IMG/VR virus record: IMGVR_UViG_3300049734_000429
Span: 1-20,245 of that record
Strand: one strand, 5' to 3'
Origin: a virus
Length of the DNA: 20,245 bases
Part shown: positions 1,908 to 17,512 of the stretch, one piece after another
Numbering within the stretch: the first letter of the stretch is position 1
Layout: each line of letters begins with the position of its first letter
Notes under the pieces: generated by a model
What the model saw: the letters and a program-made list of their open reading frames with translations, nothing else
What the model was told of the DNA's origin: nothing
Database searches by the model: none
Translations under genes and position numbers: made by a program

Positions 1908-2795
1908 TTGCTCGAGCAATGCGACGCGTCGCCCGACGTCCTCACCGACGCGTCGAAGCTTGACGCGGGCGACGGCTCGCGGTACCCTCTCGACGTGAAG
2001 AAGTCGCTCACAGCTGCCGGCGACGCGTCGTGTCGATCGACCGGCGACGCGTCGCCAGGATCCCGATTCGACTCGCCCCCGGCCGAAGACGACGCGTCGC
2101 GGCAGGTCCTCGCCGACGCGTCGCCGAGCGATCGTTGTTGCGCGTGGTGCCGGGGTTCGATACCTGAGCGTGCCCGGGTCGATTCGATCTTCTGCTCGCG
2201 GCGGTGCCGGCAAGCCGCCTTCCGGATCCGTCGGCGACACCAGGTCGAGGAGCGTGAAGCGAAGCCGCTTCGCATGGCCTACGCCGATCCGCCCTACCCC
2301 GGCCTGGCGTGGATGTACCGCGATCAGCCGAGCTACGCCGGCGAAGTCGATCATGCGGCTCTGATCGCGTCGCTGGAGGCCTCCTACGACGGCTTCGCAC
2401 TGAGCACGTCTTCGAGGGCCCTGGCGACGCTTCTGCCGCTCTTAACCCAGCCCTACCACTTGTGCCCGTGGGTGAAGCCGATCGGGGCCGCGGGCACGAC
2501 GTTTGGCGTGCACAACACTTGGGAACCCTTGATCGTGGTGCCGGGCCGCGAGCTTCAACCGGGTAAGCGCGACTGGCTCCTGGCCCAGCCGGCGAGAGGG
2601 GGCGGAAGCGACTTGATCGGCCGCAAGCCCGAGGCGTTCGCGGTGTGGCTCTTCGAGCTGCTCGGCCTTCTTCCCGGTGACCAATTCGACGATCTCTATC
2701 CCGGCTCGGGGATCATCGGCCGGGCGTGGGCCGAGGTCTGCCGTCAGCGGAGCCGCTCGGCCAGGTCGTCAATCGCGGCCTCGGGCGTGGCGTGA
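1908..2795 (+). CDS. DPPY-type DNA methyltransferase with N-terminal repeat and Cys cluster
   Basis: 295 residues from TTG 1908, just after an in-frame TAG; GTG 1995 is an alternative start. Residues about 6-76 are an octapeptide repeat starting mostly with DAS. Residues 77-112 form a likely zinc-binding knuckle (C78-x2-C81, C96-x3-C100) ending in a basic helix, CRQAAFRIRRRH. The catalytic domain follows: DPPY at 127-130 (motif IV), then KPEAF, WLFELLG and DLYPGSG at 262-268 (motif I, SAM binding). Motif IV before motif I is the order of beta-class N6-adenine/N4-cytosine methyltransferases; similar enzymes occur in actinobacteria and phages. The gene opposes the structural operon, and its 3' end overlaps the 64-residue minus-strand gene antisense by 52 nt. 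It likely protects phage DNA from restriction or marks it. The target is unknown, and no cognate endonuclease is seen. Confidence 0.8.
   Translation: MLEQCDASPDVLTDASKLDAGDGSRYPLDVKKSLTAAGDASCRSTGDASPGSRFDSPPAEDDASRQVLADASPSDRCCAWCRGSIPERARVDSIFCSRRCRQAAFRIRRRHQVEEREAKPLRMAYADPPYPGLAWMYRDQPSYAGEVDHAALIASLEASYDGFALSTSSRALATLLPLLTQPYHLCPWVKPIGAAGTTFGVHNTWEPLIVVPGRELQPGKRDWLLAQPARGGGSDLIGRKPEAFAVWLFELLGLLPGDQFDDLYPGSGIIGRAWAEVCRQRSRSARSSIAASGVA
1923..2138 (+). repeat. 24-bp-period GACGCGTCG array inside methyltransferase gene
   Basis: GACGCGTCG occurs at 1923, 1947, 2022, 2046, 2091 and 2115: three pairs, each exactly 24 bp apart. A degenerate unit (GACGGCTCG) lies at 1971. The whole stretch reads as nine octapeptide units, with one unit a codon longer (1995) and one a codon shorter (2070). 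The core uses the same codons (gac gcg tcg) every time, while the 15 bp between cores varies. GACGCGTC is an 8-bp palindrome. The same core with 24-bp period recurs at 19151-19207. Confidence 0.85.
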
Positions 2796-6550: not shown

Positions 6551-6578
6551 AGCTGCCGTCCCGAGGGGGGTGTGCAGC

Positions 6579-6584
6579 TATGTA
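6579..6584 (-). promoter_or_regulatory. TANATA box upstream of major tail gene
   Basis: TACATA on the minus strand lies in the 41-nt gap after the gp10-like gene, 28 nt before ATG 6550. Here no start codon follows at 5 nt, so a transcript would carry a leader of about 22 nt containing GGGACGG, a weak Shine-Dalgarno-like stretch. Confidence 0.4.
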
Positions 6585-6591
6585 CCCGGCG

Positions 6592-7047
6592 TCAGTTGCG
6601 GGCGAGTTCGAGGGCGATCTCGCGGCCGACCTCGCGGCCGGCGTCGGCCAGGAAGCGGTGTACGCTCGCGTCGTACGCCGGGCGGAGCCAGGGCCGCGGC
6701 CGCGATCGCGACGTGCCGCGTTCGAGGAGGGCCGCGTAGCGGGCGGGAACGACCACCCGCTTCCCGCCCTTGTTGGGGCCGCGAGTGATCTTGCCGCGCT
6801 TGCTCCGCTTGTAAGCGGTCGAGGGGCCGATCACGGCAACCCAGCGATCCGACGGGTAGCCCTTCAGCTTGATCCGAATGCTCTTAGCCAGCGCCCCCGT
6901 TTCGCGGACCTGCTCGGCGTGCGAGACAACGGCACCCTTGACCGGGCGGAGCGCCCTCGACAGGCCGATCCGCGTGGCCTTGCGGAGCCCGGACCGGCGG
7001 AGGGCGTCCGCCGGCCGTAGGTCGATCTTGAACTCGCTCCGGATCAC
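6592..7047 (-). CDS. HK97 gp10-like head-tail/minor tail protein
   Basis: 151 residues from GTG 7047, which overlaps the upstream stop (GTGA). The pattern is that of HK97-gp10-type proteins: an N-terminal helix with basic residues, then GALAKSIRIKLKGY, a variable loop, YAALLERGTSRSRPRPWLRPAY (the conserved E-x-G-T and P-x-P-F/W-L-R-P-A motif), and a C-terminal helix. These proteins act at the neck or tail and often sit beside the tail terminator gene. The next gene here is the major tail protein, only 41 nt away, so the usual tail terminator gene is missing from this position. Confidence 0.82.
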   Translation of the reverse strand: MIRSEFKIDLRPADALRRSGLRKATRIGLSRALRPVKGAVVSHAEQVRETGALAKSIRIKLKGYPSDRWVAVIGPSTAYKRSKRGKITRGPNKGGKRVVVPARYAALLERGTSRSRPRPWLRPAYDASVHRFLADAGREVGREIALELARN

Positions 7048-7256
7048 TGGCCCCTCAAATACTCGAGTATCGGCCCCAGGTCATCGCGGAGCCCGTCGCG
7101 GAGCCGGCGGGTGTGCCGCGGGTCGTCTTCGAGCCAGACGGCCAGCCACAGCGGCCACAGGCCGACGGTGAGCGCCCAACGGACGGCCAGGTCGCACGGC
7201 CGGCAGCCGGCGAACCGGGAACGGAGAGCGAGCACGCGCTCGACCAGGGCGTTCAT
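7044..7256 (-). CDS. Small hydrophobic phage protein
   Basis: 70 residues from ATG 7256. Both ends overlap neighbours by 4 nt (ATGA at the start, GTGA at the end), which fixes the start and argues that it is a real gene. The middle holds a Trp-rich hydrophobic stretch (LAVRWALTVGLWPLWLAVWL, residues about 23-42), long enough for one membrane helix, preceded by C-R-P-C. The C-terminus is charged. I do not recognise a family. It lies inside the head-tail connector block, an unusual place for a membrane protein. Confidence 0.6.
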   Translation of the reverse strand: MNALVERVLALRSRFAGCRPCDLAVRWALTVGLWPLWLAVWLEDDPRHTRRLRDGLRDDLGPILEYLRGQ

Positions 7257-11667: not shown

Positions 11668-11696
11668 TTGACGAGTCACCGCAGCGGTGTCACAAC
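11668..11696 (+). promoter_or_regulatory. Possible C5 methyltransferase promoter with palindrome in spacer
   Basis: TTGACG (11668-11673) resembles a -35 box; 17 nt later is CACAAC, a poor -10. The spacer holds the perfect odd palindrome CACCGCAGCGGTG (11677-11689), the same type as the units of the array at 19622-19816. C5 methyltransferase genes are often autoregulated, so this could be an operator. The promoter itself is weakly supported. Confidence 0.35.
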
Positions 11697-11816
11697 AGGA
11701 AGACGAAGGCCAGCGGCGATCGAGCAGTCACGGTTGCCGCTGCGGGGTCACGGCCTGGCCGAGTCACACATCGATGAGTCACACTCTCCAGGACCTGTCA
11801 CAGTGCGGTCAGTCAC
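11675..11816 (+). repeat. 5' cluster of eight GTCAC motifs
   Basis: GTCAC starts at 11675, 11689, 11727, 11747, 11763, 11778, 11797 and 11812, all on the plus strand; the reverse orientation GTGAC is absent. Spacing is irregular (14-38 bp). The copies fall in all three codon phases, so the repetition is at the DNA level. Confidence 0.8.
11767..11784 (+). repeat. 18-bp direct repeat, left copy
   Basis: CACATCGATGAGTCACAC, identical to 12592-12609. The ATG inside this copy is the proposed start of the C5 methyltransferase. Confidence 0.85.
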
Positions 11817-12700
11817 CCGAGCTAGTTCTGTCCCTTTTCCCGGGTGTTGACCTCCTTGGCCGAGCCTTTTCTGCCGTCGGGTATTCTGTTGTCGCCGGCC
11901 CCGACCTCCTCCTCGATCAGCTAATCGAGGAGTTCCACACTCCTGCGGGTAGGTTCGACGGGATAATCGGCGGACCGCCTTGCCAGCACTACTCCGACGC
12001 GAACCGCCAGCGGGTCACTGCTGAAGGAGATCGGCTGGTGTGCGAGTTTCTCCGCGTGGTTGATGAGGCCCGTCCGGTGTGGTGGCTGATGGAGAACGTC
12101 CGCAACGTGCCGCACGTGCGGTTACAGGGCTATAGCGTCCAGCGCCTCGACTGCACAGACTGGGAATTCGGTGGGCCTTCCGGGCGGCTCCGACATATCC
12201 AGTTCGGACACCGCGACGGCTGGATTATTCGCCCCCTGCGCACGAGAACCGAGCGGCCAGTCACACCGGTTCCGACCCTCACAACCGTCCCGGCCGGGGC
12301 CGATCGTTACAGTCGGCGATGTTCCAGGATGGGCCTTGCGCTGCCCCTGGTTCTAAGCTCGTTCACGACCGCGGCACGACGTCGGGTCATTGCAAACGGA
12401 GTCCCGTGGGGGATGGGCTTAGCGCTAGCCAGGTCGGTCACCAGCGCAGGACCTGTCACACCAAACGACTGCGTTTGCGGGTGCGGCCGTCGAGTCACAC
12501 CCCCGAGGTCGCACGCCAGCGACGCTTGCCGGCAACGAGCCTCGCGCTGCCGGCGGGGTCACAATCGAGTGTTGGAGTTCCCCCAGGGGGTCACATCGAT
12601 GAGTCACACCAGGAAGATCGCCGGCGTTGCCGGCGGGGCGGACGCGGCCGCGTCGGCCAGGGCGAAGGGCATGAGCAGCGCGATCGCGCCGTCGATGTGA
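11774..12700 (+). CDS. C5-cytosine DNA methyltransferase with C-terminal Cys cluster
   Basis: 308 residues from ATG 11774; the frame is open from GTG 11687, but the catalytic domain starts soon after the ATG. Motifs (numbered from the ATG): LSLFPGVDLLGRAF (motif I, about 19-32), IIGGPPCQ with catalytic Cys70 (IV), MENVRN 106-111 (VI), GRLRHIQFG (VIII) and RRVIANGVPWGMGLALARSV (X). The gap between VIII and X is about 60 residues, so the target recognition domain is very small. A Cys-rich module follows (CVCGCGRR, ASDACRQRASRCRR; about 233-261), a likely zinc knuckle. The last 33 residues are antisense to the 3' end of the large terminase gene, suggesting that insertion added a foreign tail. 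It probably modifies phage DNA against restriction. No partner nuclease is seen. Confidence 0.82.
   Translation: MSHTLQDLSQCGQSPELVLSLFPGVDLLGRAFSAVGYSVVAGPDLLLDQLIEEFHTPAGRFDGIIGGPPCQHYSDANRQRVTAEGDRLVCEFLRVVDEARPVWWLMENVRNVPHVRLQGYSVQRLDCTDWEFGGPSGRLRHIQFGHRDGWIIRPLRTRTERPVTPVPTLTTVPAGADRYSRRCSRMGLALPLVLSSFTTAARRRVIANGVPWGMGLALARSVTSAGPVTPNDCVCGCGRRVTPPRSHASDACRQRASRCRRGHNRVLEFPQGVTSMSHTRKIAGVAGGADAAASARAKGMSSAIAPSM
12437..12607 (+). repeat. 3' cluster of six GTCAC motifs
   Basis: GTCAC starts at 12437, 12455, 12494, 12558, 12590 and 12603; two isolated copies lie in the gene body (12014, 12260). Together with the 5' cluster this makes 16 same-strand copies in 933 bp, where chance would give about one. 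The cluster stops abruptly at the terminase stop codon. Confidence 0.8.
12592..12609 (+). repeat. 18-bp direct repeat, right copy
   Basis: CACATCGATGAGTCACAC, identical to 11767-11784. On the minus strand this copy contains the TGA stop of the large terminase. The two copies bracket the methyltransferase cassette. Confidence 0.85.
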
Positions 12701-14928: not shown

Positions 14929-16800
14929 TCACCCGTTGCTCATCCACCAGACGCGGAACCGGGCGAGATGGTGGTAACCCTCTTCGGTGACCTCTTCGGC
15001 AGTCCCTGACCACAGAGCGCGGCGAACGACCTGCCCGCGGTATGCGTTGAGCACGTCGGTGAGTCGATCGGCGATCGTCTTCGCTTGCGCGTAGGTCTCG
15101 GCCAGGGCGTGGAACTCCACGTCACTCACAACCAGGTGGGGACCGGGGTCGAGTTGATCGATCGGCTCGCTGTCCGGGACCGAGTAGTAAACCCACGGTG
15201 TGGGGGCGTCGTCGTCTGGGACTTCCCCCGGGTAGATGCTCTCACCGACCAGGTCGGTGAGCGTGGAGTCGGTGCCGAGGGCTGCTCGAATGTCTTCCTG
15301 GATCGAGGTCACACCCTCGGGGCCGACGATGAGGACCTCGGGGAACGGCCGGCTCCACCAGACCGCGAACCGCACGACGTGGTGATAGCCCTCTTCTGTG
15401 AACTCCTCACTGCTCGCCGACCAGAGAGCCCGGCGGACGATGTCGCCGTGGAAGCCCTCAACGATCGTGTAGACGCGATCGAGGATCGACTTGGCTTGCC
15501 CGTAGGTCCCGGCCAGGGCGTGGAACTCGACCTCACTCCGGACGTCAAGGTCGCCGCCGTCGAGCTGGTCGAGAGGCGTGCTCTCGGTCACGGAGTAGTA
15601 GAGCCAGGGTTTCGGGGCGTCGTCGTCGGGCACTTCGCCGGGGTAGATGCGATCGCTCACGTCGCCGGCGAGCGTTGCGTCGGCCCCCAGTTCGGCACGT
15701 AGCTCTTCCTGGATCGACTCGAAGATCGAGGGGGTTTCACCGACAGCGTCGAGGTCGGCGATCGCGGAGAGGTCGGCACTCCCTGCACTGGTCCGGGCGC
15801 CGGAAGCTTCCAGCGTGGCAACCGCCGAGAGGTCGGCCGAGCCCTCGGCCGCGTCGGGATCGGGCGGGGCGTCGCCGGCAGCTTCCAGCGACGCTTCAGC
15901 GGTGAGGTCGGCGGCCCCTTCGCTCGCACGCTCGCCGGCAGCTTCAAGCGACGCCTCGGCGACCAGCTCCGCGGCCCCTTCGCTCGCACGCCCACCGGCA
16001 GCTTCGAGCGACGCCTCGGCGACCAGGTCAGCGGCCCCCTCACTCGGCCGACTGCCGACGGCTTCGAGCAAGGCCTCGGCGACCAGGTCAGCGAAGCCCT
16101 CAGCTTCCTCGCTTCCCGCGTCCCACTCGTCGAAGTCCAGCCCGTCACCCGCGTTGTAGATCGTGTTGAGGTCGGTCTCACTCTTGACGACGTTCCAAAA
16201 CGAGACTTCGTCGAGCAGTCCGTCGAGAGGTGTGCTGTTGGCTACCTCGAAAAGCCCCAACGCCACCGTTCCGACGGAGTTTGTCAGGCCATGGGCAAAC
16301 GATTCAGTATCGACCGTTCCGTTGACGTAGATCCTCAACTCGTTCGCATCGGGGTCATGCGAAGCTGCGACATAGTACCAGGTGTCAATCTCGATCTCGA
16401 CCGACGACAGGACCTGATCGAAATCCGACCCGTTCCAGTGCCCGGAAACGAATCTCAAATTGCCGCCGCTGTCGAGCTGTAGGAACGCGTCAACCGCTGC
16501 GCCGGTGCGTTTCGAGATGAGTTCTTGGGCCGCGCCTAGTGAGTTGAACCGAACCCAGCAAGCCCACGTTAGTGGAACGTCGCCGGTGTCGAATTCCGCG
16601 GAAGTGGATAGCAGGCCCGGATTCGCACCCGCGAATCCGCTCCCGGGAACGTAATTCGCCGCGTTGCCTATCTTTCCCGTGGCCGAGTCGGGGGGTGAGA
16701 ATGCTGCCTGTGTGAAGTCGTTGCTGCCGTGAGAGTCAGCCCGTGTGCCGGTAGACTCCTCAACCTTCAGGTGGGTAATGAGTCCGTCTTTGAGTGCCAC
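14929..16800 (-). CDS. LamG-like / repeat / tandem tail-terminator fusion protein
   Basis: 623 residues from GTG 16800, with GGGAGG 7 nt upstream, one of the few good Shine-Dalgarno sites here. Residues about 1-215 look like a LamG/concanavalin-type beta sandwich (TWACWVRFNSLG, WYYVAASHDPDANELRIYVN, LDGLLDEVSFWN). Residues about 234-355 are six copies of a 20-residue repeat of the type EGAADLVAEASLEAAGGRAS, some degenerate. Residues about 362-481 and 499-619 are two related copies of a DUF3168-type tail-completion domain, both with RIYPGEVPDDDAP or SIYPGEVPDDDAP, W-x-YYSV, VEFHALA-x-TY-x-QAK and VRRALWS. A tail terminator caps the tail tube and joins it to the head; its gene is missing from the usual place beside the major tail gene. 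The fusion suggests a neck ring carrying a LamG appendage, which is inference. Confidence 0.8.
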   Translation of the reverse strand: MALKDGLITHLKVEESTGTRADSHGSNDFTQAAFSPPDSATGKIGNAANYVPGSGFAGANPGLLSTSAEFDTGDVPLTWACWVRFNSLGAAQELISKRTGAAVDAFLQLDSGGNLRFVSGHWNGSDFDQVLSSVEIEIDTWYYVAASHDPDANELRIYVNGTVDTESFAHGLTNSVGTVALGLFEVANSTPLDGLLDEVSFWNVVKSETDLNTIYNAGDGLDFDEWDAGSEEAEGFADLVAEALLEAVGSRPSEGAADLVAEASLEAAGGRASEGAAELVAEASLEAAGERASEGAADLTAEASLEAAGDAPPDPDAAEGSADLSAVATLEASGARTSAGSADLSAIADLDAVGETPSIFESIQEELRAELGADATLAGDVSDRIYPGEVPDDDAPKPWLYYSVTESTPLDQLDGGDLDVRSEVEFHALAGTYGQAKSILDRVYTIVEGFHGDIVRRALWSASSEEFTEEGYHHVVRFAVWWSRPFPEVLIVGPEGVTSIQEDIRAALGTDSTLTDLVGESIYPGEVPDDDAPTPWVYYSVPDSEPIDQLDPGPHLVVSDVEFHALAETYAQAKTIADRLTDVLNAYRGQVVRRALWSGTAEEVTEEGYHHLARFRVWWMSNG

Positions 16801-16817: not shown

Positions 16818-17138
16818 TCAAATCCCGTGGAGCGCCGGGCATTGGAGTATGGCCTCGCCGACGGCTTCCGTCTGCTGGCCGGACATGGTGTTGATCTTGC
16901 CGAGGAGAGAACTCGATTCCGCGTAGGAGAGACGAGCGTCGGTCGTAGTCGGGTAGAGCCCTTCATCGACGGCCCGTTGCCAGTGGGAATCCTGCGAGCC
17001 GTCACCGTCTTTGAACGATTCGAGGGCTCTAACTGCGTTTCGGAGTTGGTCGCGGCCCTCGCGAAGGCGGGTGAATGCCTGCAAGAGGCTCCGCACCGGG
17101 GCCTTTGTGGAGTCCGCTTCAATGAATAGTGCTGCCAT
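16818..17138 (-). CDS. Hypothetical protein in virion gene cluster
   Basis: 106 residues from ATG 17138, 14 nt after the upstream gene and 17 nt before the LamG-terminator gene, so probably cotranscribed with both. The sequence is largely helical and charged (PVRSLLQAFTRLREGRDQLR, ARLSYAESSSLLGKINTMSG) with no Cys until near the end. I do not recognise a family. The position between two virion-type genes suggests a structural or assembly protein. Confidence 0.6.
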   Translation of the reverse strand: MAALFIEADSTKAPVRSLLQAFTRLREGRDQLRNAVRALESFKDGDGSQDSHWQRAVDEGLYPTTTDARLSYAESSSLLGKINTMSGQQTEAVGEAILQCPALHGI

Positions 17139-17152
17139 TGATCACCAGGGCG

Positions 17153-17512
17153 TTACGCCGGGTCGGCGAGTCGGAGTCGGGTCGGGCCGCCAGCCACGAC
17201 GGTGTAATTGCCGGCGGCGTTGAAGGCCTGGTCGCCGCTCACCGCCGCCGAGCCGATGAAGACGTCGGGCGACCCGTCTTCCCAGAATCCGATGAAGAGC
17301 ACGTCCTCGTCGGCGGGTCCGGTGAAGGGCACGTCGGCGTTGAGTGCCCGGGCGCCGCCCGAAGCCGCGTTGAAGGTCGCGGCCTGGCGGGCGTAGCCGC
17401 CGCCGGTGACCTCGTTGTTCGCCCCCGCCGCTCCCGGGTCGCCCGTGTGGAGCGACAGCAGGTTGACGGTGAGGGCGTCGAGCATCTCGTTCTTGGCGGC
17501 GGTCGTGAACAC
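17153..17512 (-). CDS. Virion/tail-associated small protein
   Basis: 119 residues from GTG 17512 with GGGAG 5 nt upstream as a Shine-Dalgarno site. The sequence follows a pattern common in phage virion proteins: FTTAAKNEMLDALTVNLLSLHTGDPG, a Gly/Asn-rich turn, GGYARQAATFNAASGG, then a beta-rich end (VLFIGFWEDGSPDVFIGSAA). Related proteins occur in tailed phages near tail genes, usually without assigned function. It begins 18 nt after the integrase stop. Confidence 0.7.
   Translation of the reverse strand: MFTTAAKNEMLDALTVNLLSLHTGDPGAAGANNEVTGGGYARQAATFNAASGGARALNADVPFTGPADEDVLFIGFWEDGSPDVFIGSAAVSGDQAFNAAGNYTVVAGGPTRLRLADPA

Follow-up and report, generated by a model that had tools for sequence, protein, structure and literature searches.

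A single gene in the 20,245-base IMG/VR record analysed here (the window), which reads as a temperate siphophage, joins a LamG domain, a repeat stalk and two tail terminator domains in one frame. We think it probable that this fusion gene is the functional tail terminator of the phage and that it displays LamG appendages at the neck. The tail terminator is a hexameric ring that caps the tail tube and is needed for tail completion. In the model that we favor, the C-terminal half would supply two fused copies of the ring subunit, capping the tail tube and docking the tail to the head, and the N-terminal half would be a lectin-like LamG domain carried by a stalk of repeats. Three chains would build one pseudo-hexameric ring, placing three LamG appendages at the neck, and through these arms the virion may bind weakly and reversibly to polysaccharide, either on a surface or extracellular. 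With the subunit duplicated, a ring of six positions would carry half as many bulky adhesins.

The fusion gene and its domains are as follows:

14929..16800, minus strand: LamG, repeat stalk and tandem tail terminator gene, 623 aa (open reading frame; Pfam and PHROG matches; start site)
16171..16605, minus strand: Laminin_G_3 (concanavalin A-like) domain, residues 66-210 (Pfam PF13385, E 8.8e-19)
15730..16104, minus strand: six 20-residue Ala/Gly-rich repeats, residues ~233-357 (period-20 autocorrelation 0.53)
15346..15717, minus strand: terminator domain 1 (D1), residues 362-485 (PF11367; AF2; VIA Z)
14938..15306, minus strand: terminator domain 2 (D2), residues 499-621 (PF11367; AF2; Foldseek)

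The frame is intact over its 623 codons and opens with a GTG, with a GGGAGG Shine-Dalgarno sequence 7 nt upstream. At 68.6 bits, the PF13385 match lies above the curated cut-off of 27.6, and the LamG domain resembles cyanophage virion structural or fibre proteins. Identity within the repeat region is 53% at lag 20, against no more than 21% at any other lag tested, and the six units are interrupted by a 5-residue insert after unit 4. PF11367 (Tail_completion_gp17, DUF3168) matches the frame in two places (E 5.9e-17; 62.4 bits, cut-off 24.5), and PHROGs returns tail-terminator families 347, 78, 176 and 123. A first-pass annotation had read a LamG-like domain, six 20-residue repeats and two DUF3168-type domains in this frame, with the terminator region at residues 362-619; Pfam, PHROGs and the period-20 identity bear out that architecture, and the limits of D1 and D2 match the region. 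A search of IMG/VR and 50,697 phage records for close relatives found none for the terminator half and no near-identical fusion. The whole protein matched phage records through its LamG part only, mostly cyanophage structural proteins.

As modeled, D1 and D2 both have the tail-terminator fold. The AF2 model of D2, built with its sister copy and eight relatives, has a pLDDT of 82.7, and its best PDB matches by Foldseek are RcGTA, SPP1 gp17, the pyocin R2 collar, lambda gpU, R4C, T5 p142 and further entries for neck or terminator proteins. In the full-length AF2 model, the two domains fold separately with an identical order of elements, D1 at a pLDDT of mostly 75-87, and both match terminators with VIA Z of 13-15 (maxima 15.0 and 14.2); for D1, Z is 15.0 to the RcGTA terminator and 13.8 to lambda gpU. 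Outside D1 and D2 the full-length model is poor, with LamG and the repeats below pLDDT 60 (LamG was run without homologues). The C-terminal domains had been called terminator-like from the sequence, and the AlphaFold models agree, matching RcGTA, lambda gpU, SPP1 gp17 and T5 p142 best. These four share their domain family (PF11367/DUF3168 and structural relatives) and fold with D1 and D2. They are, however, single-domain proteins without an adhesin, whereas the window protein has two copies plus LamG and repeats and is encoded between integrase and TerS.

D1 and D2 are 59% identical to each other, and each is 57-60% identical to the single-domain protein of the Gemmatales genome G417. A tree built from 108 terminator domains pairs the two copies as sisters, with modest support (0.68), inside a clade with G417 supported at 0.97. 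The dS between D1 and D2 is 0.95, compared with ~1.4 to G417, and from these comparisons the duplication appears as lineage-specific and recent on the dS scale. The dN is 0.31 between the copies and 0.36 from each copy to G417. Since the two copies are equally distant from G417 in dN, and dS exceeds dN, the substitution rates indicate that both are kept by purifying selection at similar rates. The fusion comes from one metagenomic record, with no near-identical counterpart in IMG/VR or the 50,697 phage records, as might be expected of an accidental or decaying fusion without function. Such a reading is highly improbable given the intact frame, the good start site, two terminator copies both under purifying selection and the recurrence of related fusions described below.

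The genes of the window run on the minus strand in the order tyrosine integrase, Gp80-like gene, 106-aa ORF, LamG fusion, TerS, HNH, TerL, portal, protease, HK97-type capsid, gp6-like adaptor, head completion, gp10-like, major tail protein, tail assembly chaperone, tape measure and distal tail genes. Three of these labels (HNH, protease and distal) derive from sequence motifs and position, and the major tail label from position and homology. Because the TerL is 67% identical to that of G417 and 53% identical to that of Limnoglobus roseus, the host is likely a Gemmatales planctomycete. Three positions frame the fusion gene and the usual terminator slot:

17153..17512, minus strand: Gp80/phrog_240-like fibre or decoration gene (Pfam PF23140, E 5.3e-12; phrog_240, E 2.4e-24)
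16818..17138, minus strand: 106-aa ORF, 17 nt upstream of the fusion gene
6551..6591, no strand: empty gap of 41 nt between the gp10-like and major tail protein genes, the usual terminator place

The Gp80/phrog_240-like gene is the upstream neighbor of the fusion region on the same strand; the 106-aa ORF has no significant family in Pfam or PHROGs. Elsewhere in the window, a C-5 cytosine DNA methylase match (11687-12700, plus strand; PF00145, E 4.5e-12) lies opposite the packaging genes in the TerL-portal gap and looks like an inserted cargo gene of the packaging operon. Opposite the tail genes, an ORF with an ADPPYPG motif (2274-2795, plus strand) is reminiscent of MT-A70-type adenine methylases and has no Pfam match. 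The closest relatives have an additional gene (165-167 aa; L079:5976-6473 and L080:15308-15811) between the head completion and gp10 genes, which the window lacks, having a 70-aa ORF (7044-7256) in that place.

An order of gp10, terminator and major tail is typical of the terminator family, although it is not obligatory. In the window this slot is empty, exactly as the first-pass annotation had it, and a six-frame search for a second DUF3168 domain outside the fusion gene found none in the record, itself a fragment that may be incomplete; a further terminator could lie beyond its ends. The same annotation described the terminator as moved, duplicated and fused. Duplication and LamG fusion are real, but this phage is not alone in the move. 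In L005 (Limnoglobus), L079, L080, L081, L082, L083, L084, L085, L086, L112, L115/L225 and L226, a DUF3168 gene is found upstream of the terminase genes, adjoining TerS wherever TerS is recognized. Gemmatales relatives have 6-51 nt between the gp10 and major tail genes wherever this region was read, so the usual slot is empty, and within the fetched prophage regions the relocated DUF3168 gene is the sole one. The terminator of this relocated-slot clade is mostly plain and single-domain, at 121-132 aa. L090 has the usual order of gp10, terminator and major tail. As the relatives keep the DUF3168 gene near TerS and the usual slot empty, relocation between integrase and TerS is, on these sequence comparisons, a trait of a Gemmatales prophage clade and not peculiar to the window phage. 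The novelty of the window is the duplication and the LamG-repeat fusion, rather than the relocation. A separate arrangement is seen in G488 (L089 around 14636), whose terminator is encoded downstream of the distal tail gene, not upstream of TerS, in a prophage that looks rearranged.

The first-pass annotation knew of no described protein with this architecture, which other prophages show not to be unique. N-terminal adhesin and/or repeat fusions to a terminator occur in at least five other planctomycete prophages (L218, L111, L219, L220 and L284). G692 (L218) encodes a 796-aa protein with many 20-residue repeats followed by two DUF3168 domains (E 5.7e-17 and 1.1e-13), and directly upstream lies a gene of the Gp80/phrog_240 family (E 5.9e-31), which is weakly matched at the same place in L220. 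In G536 (L219), a frame of 1128 aa holds 25-residue repeats, a pair of LamG_3 domains (E 5.6e-23) and, at the C-terminus, a DUF3168; a second, bare DUF3168 gene follows it, and the two DUF3168 domains are sisters (support 0.95). The 811-aa protein of G219 (L111) combines a CBM96-like head, weakly matched at E 0.003 and short of the curated cut-off, with repeats and one DUF3168, and those of G519 (L220, 406 aa) and G515 (L284, 435 aa) have N-terminal domains and repeats ahead of one DUF3168. The major tail protein (phrog_158) is the next gene in all five, in G536 after the bare copy, which places these fused terminators in the canonical slot that they share with terminators of the lambda gpU, SPP1 gp17 and T5 p142 type. 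They differ from the window gene in this slot and in their heads and repeat lengths. A protein encoded at L289:5001-6218 (IMG/VR record 3300024988_000030) is 100% identical to the fused terminator of G519, and in a G515 prophage a 929-aa protein that combines a GDSL esterase domain with PKD/fn3 repeats (L223:6986-9775) lies directly upstream of the terminator gene, an enzyme at the slot of the N-terminal modules but as a separate gene.

In a further type, the addition follows the terminator domain: 75-115 residues in L080, L081, L115 and L226, and in L082 a terminator that runs on into a collagen-like fibre (551 aa). Like the N-terminal fusions and the window gene, these hold adhesin, repeat or fibre modules in-frame with a DUF3168 terminator; unlike the window gene, they are single-copy with the modules after the terminator. 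After the terminator domain, L080:3369-3962, L081:3984-4583, L082:10303-11958, L115:3395-4111 and L226:13505-14209 have a beta-rich module in common (TTG.N...L.A..H.LTLD..GL.LDG). It often stands immediately ahead of fibre genes, some of which have Mtd_N domains, and may be a fibre-docking module. Long open frames (339-392 aa) around many PF11367 matches were rejected as fusions, being wrong-frame noise in GC-rich DNA around called genes of ~130-140 aa.

The relatives bear on whether the fusion gene is a terminator at all. It could instead encode a neck-fibre adaptor derived from a terminator, with the true terminator unrecognized or outside a record that may be incomplete; its unusual slot among integrase and packaging genes would suit such a role, as would the C-terminal fibre fusions and fibre genes that relatives show in that slot. 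However, relatives have only the relocated DUF3168 gene in their fetched prophage regions, with the usual slot empty, and in L111, L218, L219, L220 and L284 it is the fused gene that occupies the canonical slot beside the major tail gene. We therefore regard an adaptor as very unlikely and a functional terminator as the better reading.

Duplication tends to accompany fusion. Two copies are present in the window, L218, L219 and, weakly, L111, giving three firm cases and one weak among six fused terminators; the second domain in L111, possibly degenerate, is counted as possible only (hhalign probability 3%; 14.4 bits in a one-sequence search). In L220 and L284 the terminator is fused yet single-copy. 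No duplicated copy was found among the plain terminators examined, ~90 unique plain domains when rounded down, and a Fisher test of 3/6 fused against 0/~90 plain genes gives p ~1e-4, a descriptive value that ignores phylogeny and sampling.

Precedents exist for rings built from such double subunits. The two-domain tail-tube protein pb6 of T5 forms trimeric rings with pseudo-sixfold symmetry (PMC11784142), and that of P74-26 forms trimeric pseudo-hexameric rings (PMC10034513). As in the window protein, the ring subunit is duplicated and fused, with two homologous domains per chain; those are tube proteins, whereas ours is a terminator, for which we infer a three-chain ring. Because of this precedent and the repeated co-occurrence of duplication with fusion, three chains likely form one pseudo-hexameric ring. 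Three chains per ring cannot be assumed, since contractile systems have a two-domain terminator, PVC16 (PMC11784142). With its second terminator-like domain, PVC16 lends some weight to six chains per virion, in which D1 and D2 would form two stacked rings, or one of them would serve another contact, and six LamG domains would be displayed. The phiCD508 neck chain 9gb5_H also aligns across D1 and D2, but with an rmsd of 18.5 over the pair. We consider six chains unlikely: the two-domain precedents come from sheath-bearing tails and no sheath gene was recognized in the window, D1 and D2 share 59% identity and stand at the same distance from a single-domain relative, and the duplicate in G536 is a separate neighboring gene, which fits alternation in one ring.

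That bare second terminator beside a fused one also recalls a mixed ring, in which a free single-domain D2 would be made beside the full-length protein and translation would set the number of adhesins. The window has a candidate internal start:

15310..15312, minus strand: in-frame GTG, with GAGG only 2 nt upstream

This GTG sits at the exact start position of the single-domain relatives (D2 VTSIQEDIRAAL; G417 MASIQEELRAAL). The spacing to GAGG is nevertheless poor, and L218, L219 and L111 showed no good internal start, making a mixed ring distinctly unlikely. Display at the neck, as the first-pass annotation proposed, is supported by the position of a terminator and by the homologous fusions in the canonical slot.

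Carbohydrate-binding modules surround the siphophage neck in the neck passage structure of lactococcal 936/P335 phages, and one such module bound host cells weakly (PMC6669499). These modules belong to a separate collar protein, a BppU-like coiled coil for which six trimers are proposed, and are not fused to the terminator, unlike in the window. Anabaena phage A-1(L) has neck fibres ending in a carbohydrate-binding module, which did not bind the tested host (PMC10966104). Again unlike the window fusion, these fibres are separate trimeric proteins hooked to the pentadecameric neck ring of a myophage. Carbohydrate binding by the fusion LamG is offered here as a hypothesis, because the siphophage neck modules are separate collar proteins and the A-1(L) module did not bind. 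In the open-access literature searched we found terminators with extra domains and none fused to a lectin, an absence that is no proof that such fusions are undescribed.

Tail terminators tend to be regarded as small structural caps, and neck appendages elsewhere are separate collar or whisker proteins. If our reading is true, the terminator doubles as the base for neck appendages. In a broader context, there is about an even chance that planctomycete siphophages have repeatedly made the terminator a neck-mounted adhesin carrier, with N-terminal modules (LamG, CBM96-like or other) borne on repeat stalks, the subunit often duplicated and the sixfold ring showing three arms. The duplicates would be fused in the window and G692, neighboring genes in G536 and possibly fused in G219. 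Repeated fusion and duplication suggest a stoichiometry rule of three arms on a six-position ring. For annotation there is also a warning, as a terminator that seems to be missing can be a long lectin-repeat protein encoded beside the major tail gene or TerS.
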